Shown: piece by piece, positions 14,370 through 27,675 of the stretch
Layout: each line of letters starts with the position of its first letter
How positions within the stretch are numbered: position 1 is the stretch's first letter
From: an uncultured Spartobacteria bacterium
Lineage (GTDB): Bacteria > Verrucomicrobiota > Verrucomicrobiia > Chthoniobacterales > Chthoniobacteraceae
Direction of reading: 5' to 3'
DNA length: 43,121 bases
NCBI GenBank assembly: GCA_903928175.1
Contig: CAIYQA010000314.1
Location: forward strand, 1-43,121
Notes under the pieces: model-generated
The model's input: the letters and a program-made list of their open reading frames with translations, nothing else
Told to the model about the DNA's origin: nothing
The model's database searches: none
Program-made: the position numbers and the translations under genes

Positions 14370-15641
14370 TTAATACTGGCAATCACTTAGTAGCCCCAAC
14401 CGTGCTTCCCGCTTGCCTCGGCAGCGGGGATATTTCGGGCAGCCCCAAAACGGCGCCTCCGTCCGGGCGTTGCGGAGCGTCATTGTCGTCTGGCAGAACG
14501 GGCAGACCGGAGTGGTGATGCGGGCTGCGACCTTGAAAGCGGGGATCCAGGCTTTGACATCCCACAGATTTTCGCCGGGTTGCCTGATGACCTCCGTCAT
14601 CCGCGCTATGTCCGCCCGCCCCAGCAGTTCGATGGGCTTGCCTTCGGCGAAGGCGCGGCAGTCGCGGGTGTATACCCCCGAACTGACGAAAAGGCCGCGG
14701 GTAGCCCCTTCGGAGACCATCACACCGAAGAATGCGCGAACCTCCTTGACGTTGACCTTGAAAGCCTTCCACTGCTTGCACTGAACCAGCACCAGTTCGC
14801 CGGGCTTGGTAAGTATAATGTCAATTCCGCCGTCCGCACCCAGCCCCGAGGACACTTCCACGGCGTAGCCTTGTCGACGGTAGAGTTCGGCAATCACCAA
14901 CTCGAATTGATCCCACGATACCGAATCAATGGTAGCTGCAGTTGCGACCGGCTCAACAGCCGGGCCTGTGGTCGGGGTCGGGTAAATCACATCGCTCGGC
15001 CCGAACACCCGCAGCTTGGTCTGGCGGTTCAGCATGTATTTCCCGAACATGGCCAGCAGCAACGGCGGCACCCAACTCAGAACCATAAGCCAAAAGTGGC
15101 CCTTTGGCGGTTCGGGGTTAGGGCGACCGGCATGGGGAGTTTGCGGCGCAGATTGGAAAGGTTTCAGGGGAGCGATGAGCCCGGGCGTCGGCGTTGCGAG
15201 CGGAAGCGAAGTCCCGGCCTGAACCTTGACTGCAGCGGGGGTGGACGGGAATTGAACCGGGCGGGGGGCACTGACCAAAGACAACCTTCGCCCACCTGCC
15301 TGATCGAGCGTCGCCAAGGCACCGTCGTTCCGCGTCCAAACGCGCTCGCCGGTCTTCGTCCAGGAGGTCTGCCCGCCGTTCGCGGTCAGCACGCCAAATA
15401 TGTCTGCCGCGGCCAAAGGCGTGCTTTTCTCGTAATTAAGGCACCCCACGACCCCATCCGTGAAGCGTATCCCCAGGATCCAGGCGTCCCACCTGTAATA
15501 AACGGCACCGTCGGCGTCCACGCGCCAGGGAGTTCCGTGCTTGGCGAGTAGGGTGGTCCGCGGTTCGCTGAGTTCGGCGGCCGAAGCCGGGCGAAAAGCG
15601 AGCAGGAGGAGTGCGGCGAGGATCGGAGGTGGGATTCGCAT
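14370..15641 (-). CDS. Membrane-anchored Mrr-like restriction endonuclease with topoisomerase-type zinc ribbon
   Basis: Signal-like N-terminus, TM FWLMVLSWVPPLLLAMFG, Mrr core ADGGIDIILTKPGELVLVQCKQWK, C-terminal CPFC...GCPKYPRCRGKR. Confidence 0.85.
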   Translation of the reverse strand: MRIPPPILAALLLLAFRPASAAELSEPRTTLLAKHGTPWRVDADGAVYYRWDAWILGIRFTDGVVGCLNYEKSTPLAAADIFGVLTANGGQTSWTKTGERVWTRNDGALATLDQAGGRRLSLVSAPRPVQFPSTPAAVKVQAGTSLPLATPTPGLIAPLKPFQSAPQTPHAGRPNPEPPKGHFWLMVLSWVPPLLLAMFGKYMLNRQTKLRVFGPSDVIYPTPTTGPAVEPVATAATIDSVSWDQFELVIAELYRRQGYAVEVSSGLGADGGIDIILTKPGELVLVQCKQWKAFKVNVKEVRAFFGVMVSEGATRGLFVSSGVYTRDCRAFAEGKPIELLGRADIARMTEVIRQPGENLWDVKAWIPAFKVAARITTPVCPFCQTTMTLRNARTEAPFWGCPKYPRCRGKREARLGLLSDCQY

Positions 15642-17924: not shown

Positions 17925-18107
17925 AATTATCCTTGGTTAATGATTGCTTAGTTCGTCGGGTGTTCTTCCTAACTTTTCCAGCAGCTTAGCTCGTCCGCTA
18001 TGACATCCGTAGGCACACCAAAAATAATTCCGAATTTTCCAAAAATCTGATAGGTGTGACTTCGCATGGCACACCAGACACCTAGAATAAGGACAAAACA
18101 AAAATCC

Positions 18108-19184
18108 ATGAGCGCTGGCAGAAAAAAGCAATCCGATGCGACCAGACTTGGAACGAAGCCATCCCAGATCGCCACGCGGTCGCAGATCGAGCGCTTATTC
18201 CAAATCGTCGCCGAGATTCAGTCCGGCAATTTTCCAAATTGCACCGTGCTTCAGAAGCTTGTGGATAGAAATCGCCGAACCATCATGCGGGACTTGGAAT
18301 TTCTCCGGGACAGTCTGAACGCCCCGCTGGAATACGATGCAGTGCGGCGAGGGTATCACTTTACGGACGACTTCACACTCATGCCGCCGCTCGACCTGAA
18401 GAGCGAGGATTTCCTCACGCTCCATTTTCTCAGGCAATCCCTCGCTCCCTACGAAGATACGGAGATTGGCGCCCACATGAAAAAGTCGTTCGCGCGGATG
18501 TTTGGCCTGCTTACCGGCACAAAAACTTGGATGAAATGGGACGCGGCGGTCGCCTTTCGCGGGGAACCGAAAACCGTGGCTTCCGACGAGCAGTTGAAAA
18601 CTTTTGAGGTGTTGTTTTCCGCGATCAATACCAACCGCGTGGTGCAGTTCGAATACCACGGACGAGGGAAGGAACCATCGGAACGCCAGGTTGAACCCGC
18701 GCTTGTGGTGATGAACAAGGGGCGCTGGTATTTGTATGCGGTGGACCGGGACATGAGAGAACTGCGGACGTTTGCCCTGAGCCGAATCAAGAAAATCAAG
18801 ATGGCGCGCGCGGAGTTCTGCCCTCTACGACCGGCACTCTCACCTGAAACGCTGTTCCAGCACAGTTTTGGAATCGTGGTGGAGGAGAAGGAGCCGACGG
18901 AAGTGGTGATTGATTTTACGGCCCAAGCCGCTGACTTGATCCGCGAATCGGTCTGGCATCCGAACCAAAAGCTCGAACCGCTGCCGTGCGGCGGTGTGCG
19001 GTTCCGCTTGAGTCTGACCTCATTCTACGAAATCAAACCGTGGATTCTGAGTTGGGGCCATTACGCCCGCGTTGTGCAGCCCTCGGAGCTTGTTGACGAA
19101 ATCCGAACCGCTCTCGCCAGTGCAGCCGAGAACTATTCATCCCCGGAACAGGGCGCTAATCGGAAAGACAAGCCCCCTTTATGA
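18108..19184 (+). CDS. HTH + WYL-domain transcriptional regulator
   Basis: N-terminal HTH (TVLQKLVDRNRRTIMRDLEFLRDSLNAPLEYD), WYL region KGRWYLYAVDRDMRELRTFALSRI. Confidence 0.88.
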   Translation: MSAGRKKQSDATRLGTKPSQIATRSQIERLFQIVAEIQSGNFPNCTVLQKLVDRNRRTIMRDLEFLRDSLNAPLEYDAVRRGYHFTDDFTLMPPLDLKSEDFLTLHFLRQSLAPYEDTEIGAHMKKSFARMFGLLTGTKTWMKWDAAVAFRGEPKTVASDEQLKTFEVLFSAINTNRVVQFEYHGRGKEPSERQVEPALVVMNKGRWYLYAVDRDMRELRTFALSRIKKIKMARAEFCPLRPALSPETLFQHSFGIVVEEKEPTEVVIDFTAQAADLIRESVWHPNQKLEPLPCGGVRFRLSLTSFYEIKPWILSWGHYARVVQPSELVDEIRTALASAAENYSSPEQGANRKDKPPL

Positions 19185-19460: not shown

Positions 19461-20024
19461 ATGAGCCACAAAGCAAACACCCTAATGGATGCTGCATTCG
19501 TCAGACACTGGGCAAGCCAGTATCCCGCGACTTATGATGCCGTCCATTACGATCCTCACCTACTCAAAGCCAGGGAGGGCGATCCAGACGCGCTGCGGCG
19601 ATTGACAGAGTGGAAAAATGTGGGCAATGGCCCTCGCCCGATGCCCCTTGCACCCACAAAGGAAAAAGCGTTCCAACAGTTTCTGGCGAATTTACCGAAT
19701 TACAAGGCGCCCGGTGGCCGGAAGCGCCTTCGAAAATCCTTTCGCACAACCGCACCAGTTTATTCCATTTTCTGGTATCACGTTCTCTTCGGCAGTCCGA
19801 TCTTCGACGTGCATACGCATCGGGCGTTCCACTGGTTCACGAGATCGGTCCTTCGGAGAGGAAGCGAAGCCCGACTGCCCTACGGTGGCGGCCATTGGCA
19901 GCTATATTTCCGATATTGCCGCTGGTTCAAATGCACCTTGCACGAGGTTCGTCGCACAGACCAGAACATCACCACTCGCACGCTTGATCGCGCGCTGTTC
20001 ATGTGGGGTAGACATTACAAGTAA
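19461..20024 (+). CDS. Putative HhH-GPD-like DNA glycosylase-related protein
   Basis: WYHVLFGSPIFDVHTHRAFHWF resembles the catalytic-Asp segment of HhH-GPD proteins. Confidence 0.5.
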   Translation: MSHKANTLMDAAFVRHWASQYPATYDAVHYDPHLLKAREGDPDALRRLTEWKNVGNGPRPMPLAPTKEKAFQQFLANLPNYKAPGGRKRLRKSFRTTAPVYSIFWYHVLFGSPIFDVHTHRAFHWFTRSVLRRGSEARLPYGGGHWQLYFRYCRWFKCTLHEVRRTDQNITTRTLDRALFMWGRHYK

Positions 20025-20123: not shown

Positions 20124-21455
20124 TCATTCATCGATGGGATGGTTCTTAATAAACGCATAAACCCACCGCTCATTCCCAATTGGATTATTTGGATATCGGT
20201 CGAAATAACTACGAACAGTGTTTTTTTGAATCGGCGCTATATTCCTGTCGAGAGACAATGCTTCATTCTTAATTCTGCCAGTAATCTCTCCTCTTCCAGC
20301 AAAAGTCGGTACAGTGCGAGGCTTTTCACTTAACCACGTCCAGAATTGATCAAATTTGGAATCCTGATTGAGTCGGGGTTCGTTGTGTGCGACACCCTCC
20401 TCCATTTCGTCGCACTCAGCGGAATCTAATCTCTCTGGAAGTGCTGGTTCATTTTGAGGTTGGAGCATTATGCCGAGGATCTCCAAAGCCTCTTTAAACC
20501 AATCCGGGCACAACGCTGATCCGGGGGGCAAAACCAAGGTTACAGGCAAGCCATGTTCCGCGGTAAGTTCATGGAGCCTCGAGAGGAGAAACCGGAAGGA
20601 ATCCTCTTGAGACCATTGACAGCAATGGGTCGTGATACTGATGACATGCAGTCGTCCACCGAATTTCAGAACCAATAACCCTGCCCGATAATCCAGCGCA
20701 CGGGTTAGCGACTCTGCTCCGCGAAACAAAAGATCCCCTGAAACCGGGTGAGTAAAGTTGACACGCACAAAACCTCTCCAAAATCCGTCGGGGAGATTTC
20801 GGTCAAACATCGCCATCTCAACGTCCTCTCCCGATGCTCCAGGGGATTTCGGCCAGAGAATCGCTGACATTGCGTCCAAGGCACGGCAGAATGCCTCGTA
20901 CTCGTTTGGAGTTGTGTTTGGCTCTGCCCGGCAGAATCCGTTGTTGGCGGGTCGAGTCAGGTGAATGATAGGCTGGGACTGTAGCAAGGTAATGCTCTTC
21001 GCAGTCCATTGGTCGAGAATGTAAGCGTCTGTAGCGGGACGCAGGAAGAAGAGCAGCTTGGTGTAGAAGGATATTCCCAAGCCGAGGATGGCCGCGCTTT
21101 GCGCTTGGGCTGTCGCGAAATCAGCCGCGCGGGTATTAGCGCTCCCGAAAAGAGCTTGAATCAGAGGCACGAGAGCGGGGGCCGCAATTGACGAATCGAA
21201 GTTATTGAACTGCTGACCGCCCCAAGCCATGACACACGCGTACTTTGCTTCTGCGGTGCAGGCCGGATCCCGGCAAATCCCGCGAACTTCGCCGCGAGTT
21301 AATGGTGCGTTGAGGGTCAGCCCCAAAGGTAGCAAACTTGCACGGTGGGGGCCGCGATCTGGCTCGAAGCGGGTCAAATAGTCAAGAGGTGCCCGCCCGA
21401 CACGCATTTGCGTTGGGGGAAAGGGATGGGCCGCGTAAAGAAGGTTTATGCTCAC
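20124..21455 (-). CDS. OGG-like (8-oxoguanine glycosylase fold) protein
   Basis: LTRGEVRGICRD, AKYACVMAWGGQQFNNF, ILGLGISFYTKLLFFLRPATDAYILDQWTAKSI. Confidence 0.7.
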   Translation of the reverse strand: MSINLLYAAHPFPPTQMRVGRAPLDYLTRFEPDRGPHRASLLPLGLTLNAPLTRGEVRGICRDPACTAEAKYACVMAWGGQQFNNFDSSIAAPALVPLIQALFGSANTRAADFATAQAQSAAILGLGISFYTKLLFFLRPATDAYILDQWTAKSITLLQSQPIIHLTRPANNGFCRAEPNTTPNEYEAFCRALDAMSAILWPKSPGASGEDVEMAMFDRNLPDGFWRGFVRVNFTHPVSGDLLFRGAESLTRALDYRAGLLVLKFGGRLHVISITTHCCQWSQEDSFRFLLSRLHELTAEHGLPVTLVLPPGSALCPDWFKEALEILGIMLQPQNEPALPERLDSAECDEMEEGVAHNEPRLNQDSKFDQFWTWLSEKPRTVPTFAGRGEITGRIKNEALSLDRNIAPIQKNTVRSYFDRYPNNPIGNERWVYAFIKNHPIDE

Positions 21456-21464
21456 GTTTTTTGG

Positions 21465-22085
21465 TCAATTCATCCTTATCATCTCGACCTGAATCTGTCC
21501 AAGGCAATGAGGGCACAGCAAAACCCGCCAGTGCCGTCCGCAGAGTTGTTTCCAAGTGATTGGATCTGTGATGATTTCAGCTTTCACGGGAAGCACTTGA
21601 CCGTCCAATGGGCAGTAAACCTCCCCTTTGCTAAGGGGGAGGGAATCCTCCCATTCGAGCAGCGGGATTTTGTGAAGGTTGCCAAGCAACGGATCACGTC
21701 CTTTTTCAAACGGCCATTTGAGGCTTTTTCCCAACGCCCAGGGTTCTTTGGACTTCCAGCGACTGGCGCTCCGCAATTCATCGCCCATGTATCGGATTAC
21801 GAGTCCATGACCCTTGCCGTTCACGAACATCCGCCTGAATGGGTAATATCCCTCCCGGAACCATTGGCGAACCGTTGCCCGGCTGATTCTTGATTTCACA
21901 TCGGCGCGTTCCACGCATTCCGTTTCTGGAATAATGGTGCCACCCTTGATTTCGACAAAGTAGCCCGTATTTCCGCCCCGCTGAAGAAGCGCTGCCAGGA
22001 ACAGCATATCCCGTGTTTCAAACGGCCTGAGACCATCACGGGCCGCAGTGCATGTGGCATCCGGTAATTCCAGAAACATTTCCAT
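21465..22085 (-). CDS. Hypothetical protein with C-terminal Cys-rich motif
   Basis: 206-aa ORF, CPLDG...LCGRHWRVLLCPHC. Confidence 0.6.
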   Translation of the reverse strand: MEMFLELPDATCTAARDGLRPFETRDMLFLAALLQRGGNTGYFVEIKGGTIIPETECVERADVKSRISRATVRQWFREGYYPFRRMFVNGKGHGLVIRYMGDELRSASRWKSKEPWALGKSLKWPFEKGRDPLLGNLHKIPLLEWEDSLPLSKGEVYCPLDGQVLPVKAEIITDPITWKQLCGRHWRVLLCPHCLGQIQVEMIRMN

Positions 22086-22121
22086 TTTATATCTGAATTC
22101 TGTTTGAAATTTCTGGGGGGG

Positions 22122-23204
22122 CTATTGCTCGTCAAAAGTGATGCGAGGCTTGCCTTTAAATTCGCCCAATGCTTTGGAAACGGAAACCCTGCGTTTGGCT
22201 TCGTCCATGAGGATGTCCTTGAGAAGGTTTTCCACGGCTTCGGGAGTCAACTCGCGACCGCTCAGGGAAGAGAACGCCGCTACACGCATCAACGCTCCTT
22301 CGAGCCGCCGCACGTTGGATTGAATGTGCTGGGCTAGAAATTCCAAAATGGAGTCATCAAACTCAACTTTCATCACCTCCTCCTTCTTCCGCAAAATAGC
22401 CATGCGGGTTTCCATGTCTGGTGGCTGTAGTTCGGCAAGAAGTCCCCATTCAAACCGGGAGGCCAGACGCCCTTCGAGATTCAGGATTTCAATCGGCGCT
22501 CTGTCGCTGGAGATTACAATCTGCTTTCGAGCATCAAAGAGGGTGTTGAAGGTGTGGAAGAATTCCTCCTGCGAACGTTCCTTGCCCGCAAAAAACTGGA
22601 TGTCGTCGATGAGCAGAACGTCGGCCTTTCGGTATTTGTTGCGGAATTTAACGAGCTTGCTGTTCTGGATGGCGTCGATGAATTCGCTGGTGAATTTCTC
22701 GCTGTTGAGGTAGATTACTTTCAGCTCTTTCTTGGTAGCAATGGCATGCTGTCCGATGGCGTGCATGAGGTGCGTTTTTCCCATCCCTAGACCGCTATAG
22801 ACAAACAGCGGGTTGTAGATTTTGCCCGGGTTTTGCGCTACGGTCAACGCCGCCGCATGGGCAAACTGGTTGTTGGCGCCCACCACGAATGAGTCGAACG
22901 TGTTTTCTGGGTTCATTCCGGTCTGAGGGATGGCCTCTTCCTTGTATTCCGGCGACTCTACAATGGAGAACCGAATGGTTCGAGAACCGCCCAATACTTC
23001 CTGGATTACAGACTGAAGAAGCCCCATGTAGTTGGTTTCAAGCCAGACTTTGCAGATATTTTTTGTCACGCGCAACGTGACCTGCGATCCATCTGCATCC
23101 TCAAGCTGGACCGTCTTGAACCAACGATCAAACGTATCGGCGCTCACCTCTTGCTGGAGGATGTCCGTTATCTTTTTCCAAATCAGGTCGAGTTCGTACT
23201 TCAT
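22122..23204 (-). CDS. DnaA homologue (domains I-III) lacking the C-terminal DNA-binding domain IV
   Basis: LDLIWKKITDILQQEVSADTFDRWF, NTFDSFVVGANNQFAHAAA, YSGLGMGKTHLMHAIG, DVLLIDDIQFFAGKERSQEEFFHTFN, SRFEWGLLAELQPPD; ORF ends at the domain III/IV boundary. Confidence 0.92.
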   Translation of the reverse strand: MKYELDLIWKKITDILQQEVSADTFDRWFKTVQLEDADGSQVTLRVTKNICKVWLETNYMGLLQSVIQEVLGGSRTIRFSIVESPEYKEEAIPQTGMNPENTFDSFVVGANNQFAHAAALTVAQNPGKIYNPLFVYSGLGMGKTHLMHAIGQHAIATKKELKVIYLNSEKFTSEFIDAIQNSKLVKFRNKYRKADVLLIDDIQFFAGKERSQEEFFHTFNTLFDARKQIVISSDRAPIEILNLEGRLASRFEWGLLAELQPPDMETRMAILRKKEEVMKVEFDDSILEFLAQHIQSNVRRLEGALMRVAAFSSLSGRELTPEAVENLLKDILMDEAKRRVSVSKALGEFKGKPRITFDEQ

Positions 23205-24688
23205 AAAATTTCCTTCACTGCATTGGGTATGCTTGGTTTCATCGTCCTCATTATCCATTGCTCCACGGCTTGACGCGTTTCTGCTGAGACGGGTTCATTG
23301 CGGGCTTTCAAGAGTTGATCGAATCGCCACTCCCCGATTTGATTTTTCACGAGAGAGAGTGTGGATCGCTCTGGCTTGAGCACGCGGTAGAAATAGGTGT
23401 CGCCGTGGACAACATTGCCCAGGTAGGTCATTAGGCAGTTGTGCTGCTCCCGCGCCTCCTCTTTTAGTAAATCGAAGTTTTCCAGGGCGATCATGGCTTC
23501 GCTGCCGGGAATTGGAGGCATGGGGAATGGAATGCTACGCATGTCAGATGCATCCACTCCATGCACATCGTACGCCAATCTTGTGCCGTGGATGCGTGCT
23601 TCCAGTTCGTCGTGAAGGTGCACGAATTGCTGAACCGAGTGGAATCGCTTCTTGCCCGCATCTCCGAGTTGTCTTTGCATGCGCATCAAATCACTCGCCG
23701 AACGCGCCATTGCGGGGCCGTCAATCCCGGAGAGTTCGTGAAGCAGTCGCGGAGTTGCTCTGCGCCGAAGAGCCTTGCTGCACAGGAATTGCATTACACC
23801 CAGGTTCAGCGAAGGCAGATGCAAGAGCGGTTTGCGCCAGGCGTGGTCTTTCAGCAAATCGCGGATCGTTAGAAGCCACGAAACACAGCAGGCTGATGCA
23901 GGGATTTTTGAGAGAACCGAAACCGAGGATTCGCACTCGGGAAAGCCGAGCGCCCCGCAAATGCTGCGACGGCGGGAATCGATAAGTCGGCGCATCGTGC
24001 GGGTGGCATACTTGGAGGGGTAAGGGCCAAATGCCCAGCAGGAAGCAAGGCAGTAGGCAAGAGCCGGGTTGCTCATGATGAGGTCGAGCGAACCAGGGCA
24101 TCGCGCTGCCATCACCAGCAAGTGCCAATGGCGATCCTCGAAAGGGGCGACGGCCTTCCGAATTTTCCATGGCACATCACCAAAAAAATGCCGCACAAGT
24201 TCTCGTTCATACGCAATTGCTTCGCTCTCTTTGTGCATTTGGATCATTTTGAGCATGACCGGATCACTGGAATTTTCATATTGAACAGGTTCCGGGCTGT
24301 ATTTCCATTCGAGCAGAACGGATTCCTTGGCGAATTCCCGCACTTCGGCCTTTTCGCTGTCCAGCCATTCGAGCAAACTCCAATCGGAAGCATTTGGTTG
24401 AAATGGGTCTTCGCGGTCTGGGGCGTGCCGATTGTATTGTCCCGGCTGGCATCGATGTCGGCTTCGAGTGGCCTCAATGCTCCCTTCCTGAAAATCGATC
24501 TTAGGGCGGAACCGCGACCACTGGGGTTTGCTGTAGGTTTTCGTCCATGCTGCCATTTCGGGCCACCCCTTCACCACGACCACGCGCACTTTTGAAAAAG
24601 CGTAAAGTTTGTTGTTCTTGACGCAGACACCGGGGCGGAAGCCCGGCTTTTTCTTCTTGGCTTGCTGATCATTGCTCATCAGAAGCAA
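23201..24688 (-). CDS. PcfJ-like protein
   Basis: C-terminal EEAREQHNCLMTYLGNVVHGDTYFYRVLKPERSTLSLV; stop overlaps the dnaA-like start (ATGA). Confidence 0.65.
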   Translation of the reverse strand: MLLMSNDQQAKKKKPGFRPGVCVKNNKLYAFSKVRVVVVKGWPEMAAWTKTYSKPQWSRFRPKIDFQEGSIEATRSRHRCQPGQYNRHAPDREDPFQPNASDWSLLEWLDSEKAEVREFAKESVLLEWKYSPEPVQYENSSDPVMLKMIQMHKESEAIAYERELVRHFFGDVPWKIRKAVAPFEDRHWHLLVMAARCPGSLDLIMSNPALAYCLASCWAFGPYPSKYATRTMRRLIDSRRRSICGALGFPECESSVSVLSKIPASACCVSWLLTIRDLLKDHAWRKPLLHLPSLNLGVMQFLCSKALRRRATPRLLHELSGIDGPAMARSASDLMRMQRQLGDAGKKRFHSVQQFVHLHDELEARIHGTRLAYDVHGVDASDMRSIPFPMPPIPGSEAMIALENFDLLKEEAREQHNCLMTYLGNVVHGDTYFYRVLKPERSTLSLVKNQIGEWRFDQLLKARNEPVSAETRQAVEQWIMRTMKPSIPNAVKEIL

Positions 24689-24813
24689 GCTACCAAGCTG
24701 GGTGCGACATCCGCCGTCACACCTCTAAAAATCTTGAACGATTCAAGGCAACCAAATCATCTGGCAACATGCACTTAGTTTGCGGCCAAACTTCGTCCCT
24801 AGACGGAGGCTGG

Positions 24814-25839
24814 TTATGCGGTGGCGTTGAAGGTTTTCTCGAACTCTGCGGCGGCGGTCATCAGAGCCTCGAAGGTGGGCGTTTCGCCGAAGAACATCGG
24901 GCCGAGCATGGCTTGATAATCGGCGCGCCAGTCTGGAAGATGGTTGTCCGGCGGGACGAGGCGAAAGGTGCCGGGTTTGTGGGTGGTATAGTCCACCCAG
25001 GAGAAGCGGAAGAAGATTTCGCGGTGCTCGGCGACGCGTTGGAAAAGGGCTTTGTCCGCTAGGGCGCGTTCACCGACCCCGGCGCGGAGCAGGCACCAGA
25101 GGTCGTAGTAATGCCGGGCCATGCGGAGTTTGCGCGGCTTGTCGGCGGGGCGGAAGGTTTCCTCGTGGAGAAGGCAGGCTTTTTCCCAAAAAGTGCGCTC
25201 GGCGGCGAGGACGCGGACCGGGAACGAGGCATCTGGATCGAGCGCCGGGAAGAGTTCCGTCACGTAGGGCTGAATGGTTTTGTCCACATGCGGCCAGTCA
25301 TCGGAACGGGCACCAAGTTCGATCTTCACCACGGAGCGTACATAGCCAGCCGCACCCGCAGGGAAGACGGAGGAGTAATGAAAAAGGAGGCACTGCCCGT
25401 CGGTCATATCGGGATCGACCTCCAATAGCCAGCCGGTTTCGCCGAGGGTGACTTTCAGACGGTCGGCGAGGGCGGGTTTCAAAGTTTCCTGCACCCATTG
25501 GCGGCAGGTCTCCATGAGGTTTTCAAGGCGCGTCTTGCGCTGCTTTTTGCTGGGAGCTTTGTCCGGTGCGGCGTCTCCACCGAAACCGAGAGCGTCCTTA
25601 TCCACGATGAGGTCGATGTCCTCAGAAAACCGCTCGATGAGCTTCCACGCTTTCGAGAGCGAGGTGCCGCCTTTGAATGTAAGGTGGTCGCCGATTTCGG
25701 CCAAGGTAAAGAGTTCCCGCAGCGTCCAGCAAACCCAAAAGTCCTTTTCCACGCTGAACGCTTGCAACCCCATCTGCGACTCGACCTGCTGAAAGGCAAG
25801 GCGGCGTTCGCTGGGAGGCAGTTGGAGGAAGGCGTTCAT
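24814..25839 (-). CDS. AbiEii/AbiGii-family nucleotidyltransferase toxin
   Basis: VEKDFWVCWTLRELF, LTFKGGTSLSKAWKLIERFSEDIDLIVD. Confidence 0.9.
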   Translation of the reverse strand: MNAFLQLPPSERRLAFQQVESQMGLQAFSVEKDFWVCWTLRELFTLAEIGDHLTFKGGTSLSKAWKLIERFSEDIDLIVDKDALGFGGDAAPDKAPSKKQRKTRLENLMETCRQWVQETLKPALADRLKVTLGETGWLLEVDPDMTDGQCLLFHYSSVFPAGAAGYVRSVVKIELGARSDDWPHVDKTIQPYVTELFPALDPDASFPVRVLAAERTFWEKACLLHEETFRPADKPRKLRMARHYYDLWCLLRAGVGERALADKALFQRVAEHREIFFRFSWVDYTTHKPGTFRLVPPDNHLPDWRADYQAMLGPMFFGETPTFEALMTAAAEFEKTFNATA

Positions 25840-25915
25840 TCTTGTATAGTCCAAATAACTGAATTTAACGAGAGGAAGCATTCTCTGACTGGCAGCTATT
25901 GGAAAGTGTCATGGT

Positions 25916-26533
25916 TCAGGTAGTCGGCTCCGTGAGCGGGCGCAGCAGGTCGGCGATCCAAGCGGGCGCATGGCGGAGGTCTTTACGGATGGCAGCGCAA
26001 TCCTCTGAGAAAATGTAGCGGCGGAGGGCCGTGACGACTTTTTCATCCACCTGATCCTGCCCAAGGTAGCGGAGCGCCTGGATGAGGGTGCCACTTTTGC
26101 GACCGGCCGTGGCCATGTTCCGGGGCGTGGTGTGTTGCAAAATGATTTCCTGCCTCCCAATTTTCACCTTGCGGGCGGGGCCGTCCGTGAGGAACACGAT
26201 GCGCGAAGGCACCTGCTCAGAGAGTCCGAGCACGTTGGCGGCATAGGCGCCCGAAGGTTGAAGGCGAATGGCATTTCGCACCACGAGCGCCCGGGCAATA
26301 GCGTCGGCAGATGGGGCAACGGTGCCAAGCACGGGATGTTCCACCGGGTAGTCGTAGAGCCCTCGGGCGAGTTGGCGGATGACGCCTGCGGCCTTGAAAC
26401 GCTTCAATGCGGAAGCGACGGCATTCCGCGTGCCCAAGTCGGCCAGATGCGCCGGAGTAAATACCCACCCTCTCCCATGACCGTAAATACGATTCATGGC
26501 TTTGCTTTCGGTAGATGTCGGCTGCTTTTGCAT
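25916..26533 (-). CDS. AbiEi/DUF6088-like antitoxin
   Basis: Upstream partner of the AbiEii gene; N-terminal winged-HTH (NAVASALKRFKAAGVIRQLARGLYDYP). Confidence 0.8.
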   Translation of the reverse strand: MQKQPTSTESKAMNRIYGHGRGWVFTPAHLADLGTRNAVASALKRFKAAGVIRQLARGLYDYPVEHPVLGTVAPSADAIARALVVRNAIRLQPSGAYAANVLGLSEQVPSRIVFLTDGPARKVKIGRQEIILQHTTPRNMATAGRKSGTLIQALRYLGQDQVDEKVVTALRRYIFSEDCAAIRKDLRHAPAWIADLLRPLTEPTT

Positions 26534-26539
26534 GGAAAT

Positions 26540-26573
26540 CTTGACACAAGTAATACCTATTTTTTGTGTCAAG
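26540..26573. promoter_or_regulatory. Inverted repeat upstream of antitoxin, probable autoregulatory operator
   Basis: cttgacacaa - 14 nt - ttgtgtcaag, perfect 10-bp arms just upstream of the 26533 start; arms contain TTGACA. Confidence 0.7.
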
Positions 26574-27303: not shown

Positions 27304-27675
27304 TTACTTTGACACGGACGCACCGATTACAGCGGCGATGCTGGCCGATTCGTTTCTTGGCTTAGAGGGGATAGCGATGCCGATGTCGGCTTTGCGCAAG
27401 GCGGGCGTATCGTTCACACCGTCACCGGTTGCGGCGACGATCTCGCGCTTATCTTTGAGCGCGCCGACGATACGCATTTTCTGTTCTGCGATGACGCGAG
27501 CAAAGATGATTTCCGGGGCGTCGAGCGCGAGTTGGTCGTCCGGGAAACGCCCGAGCTGCTCACCGGTGACCACGACGGGGGCGTCGGAGCGAACCAGCCC
27601 GATCTCGCGGGCGATTGCCGCCGCGGTGTTGGGACGGTCGCCTGTAACCATGATTATGCATGACAATAGATGCAT
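27304..27675 (-). pseudogene. Truncated cation P-type ATPase fragment
   Basis: VTGDRPNTAAAIAREIGLV...IIFARVIAEQKMRIVGALK...VAATGDGVNDTPALRKADIGIAI; lacks both ends. Confidence 0.8.

Follow-up and report, generated by a model that had tools for sequence, protein, structure and literature searches.

The 43,121-nt contig analysed here over its whole length (the window) is one of 532 contigs in the 3.6-Mb genome of an uncultured Spartobacteria bacterium of the phylum Verrucomicrobiota, order Chthoniobacterales (95% completeness). On its minus strand it carries a block of four genes, headed by a PcfJ-family gene and including an extra, truncated copy of the replication initiator DnaA; the roles of the other three proteins are poorly known. 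From its sequence the block is predicted to be an accessory operon, whose exact set we find only here and whose parts recur elsewhere. The four genes, in the order of the operon, are as follows:

23201..24688, minus strand: PcfJ-family gene, 495 amino acids, with a TTG start at 24688 and a likelier ATG at 24679.
22122..23204, minus strand: DnaA paralogue with domains I and III, ATG start, 360 amino acids (TIGR00362, DnaA_N, Bac_DnaA).
21465..22085, minus strand: gene for a cysteine-containing protein (the Cys protein), 206 amino acids, with homologues in genomes G036, G063 and G081.
20124..21455, minus strand: OGG-like gene, GTG start, 443 amino acids (PF21790).

The stop codon of the PcfJ gene overlaps the DnaA start as ATGA (23204-23201), gaps of 36 nt and 9 nt separate DnaA from Cys and Cys from OGG, and all four frames are open and intact, so the tight packing given in a preliminary description of this DNA was borne out for every open reading frame (ORF). 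Because the DnaA, OGG and Cys proteins have homologues of their own and the PcfJ protein has them through its family, we regard the four as real genes rather than chance frames. The assignments made earlier stand on the same evidence: a DnaA without domain IV (TIGR00362), a PF21790 OGG, a conserved Cys protein and, by family homology, PcfJ.

In DnaA, domain I binds the helicase and itself, domain III binds ATP and single-stranded DNA and oligomerises, and domain IV binds DnaA boxes. The window protein shares domains I and III with the chromosomal DnaA and lacks domain IV. It scores 400 bits against TIGR00362, covering only model positions 1-349 of 437, with domain I recognised by PF11638 (DnaA_N, 46 bits) and domain III by PF00308 (Bac_DnaA); the missing positions, 350-437, are those of the box-binding helix-turn-helix. 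Aligned with proteins of the same genus, it ends after domain III in a short tail unlike domain IV, its interdomain linker is shortened, and its Walker B, arginine finger and sensor 2 motifs are intact. We considered and rejected a frameshifted domain IV lying 3' of the gene, as the downstream DNA holds no remnant of one, and likewise the idea that this is the genome's sole DnaA, as part of a canonical domain IV, with 96% identity to its counterpart from the same genus, lies at the end of contig C408. Across domain III the window copy is 75-77% identical to DnaA of its genus; in a tree it falls inside the clade of its own genus, with a Shimodaira-Hasegawa-like approximate likelihood ratio test (SH-aLRT) support of 97, and its branch length is 0.88, compared with 0.07-0.17 in the other members of the genus. 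Given this placement, the long branch and the presence of the canonical copy, we read the window protein as a duplicate of the DnaA of the host lineage that is evolving fast. No other DnaA without domain IV appears among the DnaA matches listed in 40 genomes of the family. A copy of this kind should lose origin specificity and can keep the capacity for assembly.

A further short DnaA is found in genome G532, from another class of the phylum, which has a canonical DnaA on contig C308 and a 272-amino-acid copy consisting of domain III only on contig C357. This copy most resembles DnaA from its own genus (58-59% identity) and therefore apparently arose separately from the window copy; its tree branch is too long for placement. 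A PcfJ gene lies 785 bp downstream, and because of that distance and a small ORF on the opposite strand between them, we regard the two as neighbours rather than one operon. The locus came from a search with PcfJ, so the association of DnaA with PcfJ is partly ascertained by PcfJ itself. Loss of origin binding in an accessory DnaA has thus seemingly occurred separately in two classes of the phylum, with a PcfJ gene adjoining both times.

Around the operon lie further features that bear on its interpretation:

16472..~17689, minus strand: FtsA paralogue (TIGR01174, 319 bits), its start inferred from alignment.
18066..19184, plus strand: WYL-domain transcription regulator (PF13280 and WCX), convergent with the operon.
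24777..24792, no strand assigned: 16-bp palindrome AGTTTG-N4-CAAACT, a candidate operator that lies about 100 bp ahead of the PcfJ start codon, the first of the operon.
24814..26572, minus strand: AbiEii/AbiEi pair, upstream on the same strand, a neighbour outside the operon.

With these genes beside it, among them genes already known from phage defence, the operon has a neighbourhood that looks like a defence island.

The Cys protein links the operon to loci in other genomes. Homologues in G036, in G081 and at two loci of G063 are clear from single-sequence and two-row profile searches, one single-sequence match having an E value of 2e-22, and gene fragments were found in G066 and G152. Our own genome holds a degenerate remnant on contig C1 (L120 3341-3496), 83% identical over 24 amino acids and just downstream of a Fic-like gene. 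Weak matches in G245, G324, G410, G437, G480, G491 and G526 were rejected for lack of support from the two-row profile, and the one inspected, in G245, reads as an OmpA-like protein. The family ends in a conserved CPLDG ... GRxW ... LCPxCLG region, a probable zinc site.

In G036, G063 and G081 the Cys gene directly follows a gene for an AAA+ ATPase, overlapping it by 4 nt in two cases and standing 12 nt away from it in the third, and this ATPase is Pfam AAA (PF00004), not DnaA. Because of this recurrent adjacency in three other genomes, we read the window DnaA copy as filling the AAA+ slot of its operon, that is, as occupying the position held elsewhere by a different AAA+ ATPase. A WYL gene 36-38% identical to the window regulator lies near these loci, which differ from the window in having no PcfJ or OGG gene and in carrying extra YbjN and HAD genes; the HAD protein of G036 matches the PADLOC defence candidate PDC-S34, and the others share 90-92% identity with that protein. 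Two side observations concern these genomes. Contig C108 of G081 (L131 10981-16232) has three copies of the Cys-locus AAA+ family, with a conserved GFAA tail, beside the PDC-S34-like HAD gene. On contig C57 of G063 (L132 1230-4997), the second Cys relative lies behind a 378-amino-acid polymerase-like ORF and near an integrase-like gene, as read from translations, and the locus looks like a small integrated element.

The PcfJ-like protein is a divergent one that falls short of its family model, scoring 12.4 bits against PF14284 (E 0.14) where the gathering score is 25. Its kinship is accordingly drawn from homology to PF14284 members and not from its own score: that homology spans about 330 residues, 20 of 24 aligned relatives match PF14284, and the C-terminal pattern C...Y...YR...P.R.T of the family is conserved and shared by the window protein. 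Relatives at about 24-41% identity occur in 21 of 388 phylum genomes and 10 of 213 order genomes (our own included), and their neighbours vary between genomes. In G261 (L050 3103-8981) the PcfJ gene starts 57 nt after McrB/McrC-like genes, as read from translations, and may be a third component of that McrB/McrC-like restriction system. The nearest relative, about 40% identical, is in G066 (contig C151, L154 9158-11711), where a transposase gene of the IS21 type interrupts it and nearby DUF3293 and MoaD-like genes resemble genes in L131 of G081. A decayed PcfJ remnant, 82% identical to the window protein over 28 amino acids, is present in the same-genus genome G136 (contig C70, L155 7663-8036).

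PcfJ takes its name from a protein of conjugative plasmids. Taken with the Cys relative of G063 that sits beside integrase-like and polymerase-like reading frames, this could suggest that the DnaA copy and PcfJ help a mobile element to replicate or transfer. We think such a role very unlikely: the DnaA copy has no origin-binding domain; no integrase, relaxase or replication origin was recognised near the operon; no relatives were found on phage or viral contigs; and a plasmid search with PcfJ returned a single remote match (27% identity over 30% of the query). Plasmid searches with OGG likewise gave only remote matches, the viral collection held no OGG relatives, and most of the records behind the plasmid DnaA matches (34-51% identity) are annotated as, or read like, ordinary DnaA. 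On these grounds we rejected a phage or plasmid origin of the operon.

The OGG-like protein scores 55 bits against PF21790, above the gathering cut-off of 27, and its glycosylase-like part spans residues 48-217, leaving about 220 residues beyond that family. Its relatives share an invariant G125-L-G127, K133 and D148 (the GLG...K...D of the family), residues consistent with a putative glycosylase. Judging by sequence, the genes around these relatives include RloA/RloB-like, HsdS-like and Z1/MORC-like/methyltransferase genes, and one relative has a WYL gene close by; a match in G039 was rejected as a peptidase-like ORF. A defence glycosylase has a precedent in Brig1, which alone can block phage (PMC11078745). 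The likeness lies in the idea of a defence-island glycosylase that damages phage DNA and is one of analogy, since the Brig1 model best matches uracil DNA glycosylases (PMC11078745) and not OGG-like proteins. As a side observation, a 187-amino-acid ORF on the plus strand (19461-20024) ends 100 bp from the end of the OGG gene and by eye has a glycosylase-like 'IFDVHTHRAF' stretch; it has no Pfam, PADLOC or PDB match.

Duplication of cell-cycle genes in this genome extends to FtsA. The preliminary description had noted an FtsA homologue nearby; the gene is there, and it is a paralogue, not the FtsA of the dcw cluster. The genome has three FtsA genes and one weak match, the canonical one, on contig C88, being followed directly by an FtsZ-like gene, and most of 117 order genomes have a single FtsA gene. 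On contig C497 of the same genome (L012 2984-4860) lie genes for an FtsA paralogue, for a protein called by eye as having two transmembrane (2-TM) segments and, as first codons only, for a further DnaA, which begins at domain III and is truncated where the contig ends. G081 has a protein 57% identical to the 2-TM protein, encoded immediately ahead of an FtsA paralogue; an AAA+ ATPase gene like those of the Cys loci is some 4 kb away. In the FtsA tree the window and C497 paralogues group together (97, with a long-branch warning), and those of G081 and G070 are placed with the FtsA of their own families.

The palindrome before the operon also connects it to C497, which has two copies (L012 2828-2843 and 4284-4299), 120-140 bp before the FtsA and 2-TM starts and each within a 56-bp element, the two elements being 84% identical. 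No further copy was found in the rest of the window, three other contigs of the genome or 226,542 bases of 40 further ones. The simpler reading is that the palindrome is a regulatory site common to the operon and the C497 locus, and it would put the operon and the FtsA/2-TM/DnaA genes under one regulator; a low-copy dispersed repeat is the less simple reading. The sequence TTGTCCACA, which can be read as a DnaA box, is present in just one of the three palindrome copies. One can go further and imagine an immunity or stress module that repeatedly copies DnaA, minus its origin binding, and FtsA as decoys, sensors or dominant brakes against phage, with the two loci tied by one palindromic operator, an extension we consider quite unlikely.

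Among the closest known parallels is Hda, which is related to DnaA, has no domain IV and inactivates DnaA by stimulating its ATP hydrolysis together with the clamp. Like Hda/HdaA, the window protein is a DnaA-family AAA+ paralogue without domain IV beside a canonical DnaA. It could by analogy be a brake that binds host DnaA through domains III and I, blocks or inactivates it and slows initiation under stress or infection, with the FtsA paralogue acting likewise on division. PMC4776307 gives the role of Hda and describes a cluster of prophage genes that can bind DnaA and inhibit initiation. Such a brake would fit with the two apparently separately derived DnaA copies each resembling the DnaA of its own lineage and with the FtsA paralogues of G081 and G070 sitting with their own families. 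However, Hda consists of domain III only, whereas the window copy retains domain I and is part of an accessory operon; its match to Hda models (111.7 bits) is well below the equivalog cut-off of 194.8, and it groups with the DnaA of its genus. A brake on initiation would also leave unexplained the glycosylase-like gene, the AbiE/WYL neighbourhood and the exchange of DnaA for an unrelated AAA+ ATPase beside Cys; we hold it to be rather unlikely, though it is the main rival to the defence reading that follows.

The AbiE and WYL genes, together with the defence-type settings in which relatives of the Cys and OGG proteins occur, lead us to favour, tentatively, a defence-island-type operon that would act on replicating foreign DNA, in which the DnaA copy would be the AAA+ partner of the Cys protein and work with PcfJ and a glycosylase-like effector. 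In this proposal the DnaA copy would still bind ATP and single-stranded DNA and oligomerise through domain III, and its domain I would contact the helicase or itself. With these capacities and no domain IV, it would assemble on DNA that is being replicated or is unwound, with no specificity for the origin; the Cys protein may serve as an adaptor, and the OGG-like glycosylase may act on the bases of the invading DNA. Several results weigh against a defence operon of this kind. The first glycine of the DnaA Walker A motif is a serine, which makes its use of ATP uncertain. PADLOC 2.0 gave only weak matches to the four operon proteins (mad8, GajB and PtuA were rejected as identities, at E 0.013 or worse), and the absence of operon-protein relatives from phage and viral collections leaves no tie to phage. 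AlphaFold models of the Cys protein (3 alignment rows) and the OGG domain (1 alignment row) reached a predicted local distance difference test (pLDDT) score of only 36 and 37, and a solved-structure profile search with the PcfJ, Cys and OGG proteins gave no match. Finally, no second copy of the four-gene set was found in searches with OGG (197 order genomes), PcfJ (388 phylum and 213 order genomes) and Cys (388 phylum and 197 order genomes).

This uniqueness speaks for the rival notion that the genes are unrelated island cargo without joint function, the DnaA copy drifting after duplication, which would also account for its long branch and for the decayed Cys and PcfJ remnants within this genus. 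Chance assembly accords less well with the ATGA overlap, the short gaps, four open frames and mostly conserved AAA+ motifs, or with the recurrence of DnaA-PcfJ proximity and AAA-Cys adjacency and a palindrome common to two loci, and on balance we find it doubtful. The earlier proposal of a defined four-gene system, for which recurrence in other genomes had been set as the test, did not hold in the genomes searched, and the literature searched has no description of the combination, as had been supposed. What does recur are its sub-associations: short DnaA near PcfJ, AAA+-Cys beside WYL, and FtsA paralogue with DnaA copy. The pattern that remains, of accessory origin-blind DnaA and FtsA copies tied to PcfJ, the Cys protein and a shared site, is rarer and more interesting. 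The genes may still have a role in replication or the cell cycle, as first suggested, because both duplicated proteins, DnaA and FtsA, come from the cell-cycle machinery of the host. If the DnaA copies act in defence or as brakes, this would be a new use of a replication initiator, and PcfJ proteins, familiar chiefly as a name from plasmids, would gain a first lead to their function.

Two further minus-strand features of the window lie outside these subjects. A short ORF at 27304-27675 resembles a P-type ATPase fragment and is probably a gene remnant. The product of the gene at 14370-15641 combines a restriction domain of the Mrr type with a topoisomerase-like Cys motif at its C-terminus; the PADLOC models for PDC-S02, ZorD and type IV restriction match it with E values of about 1e-9 to 1e-10.

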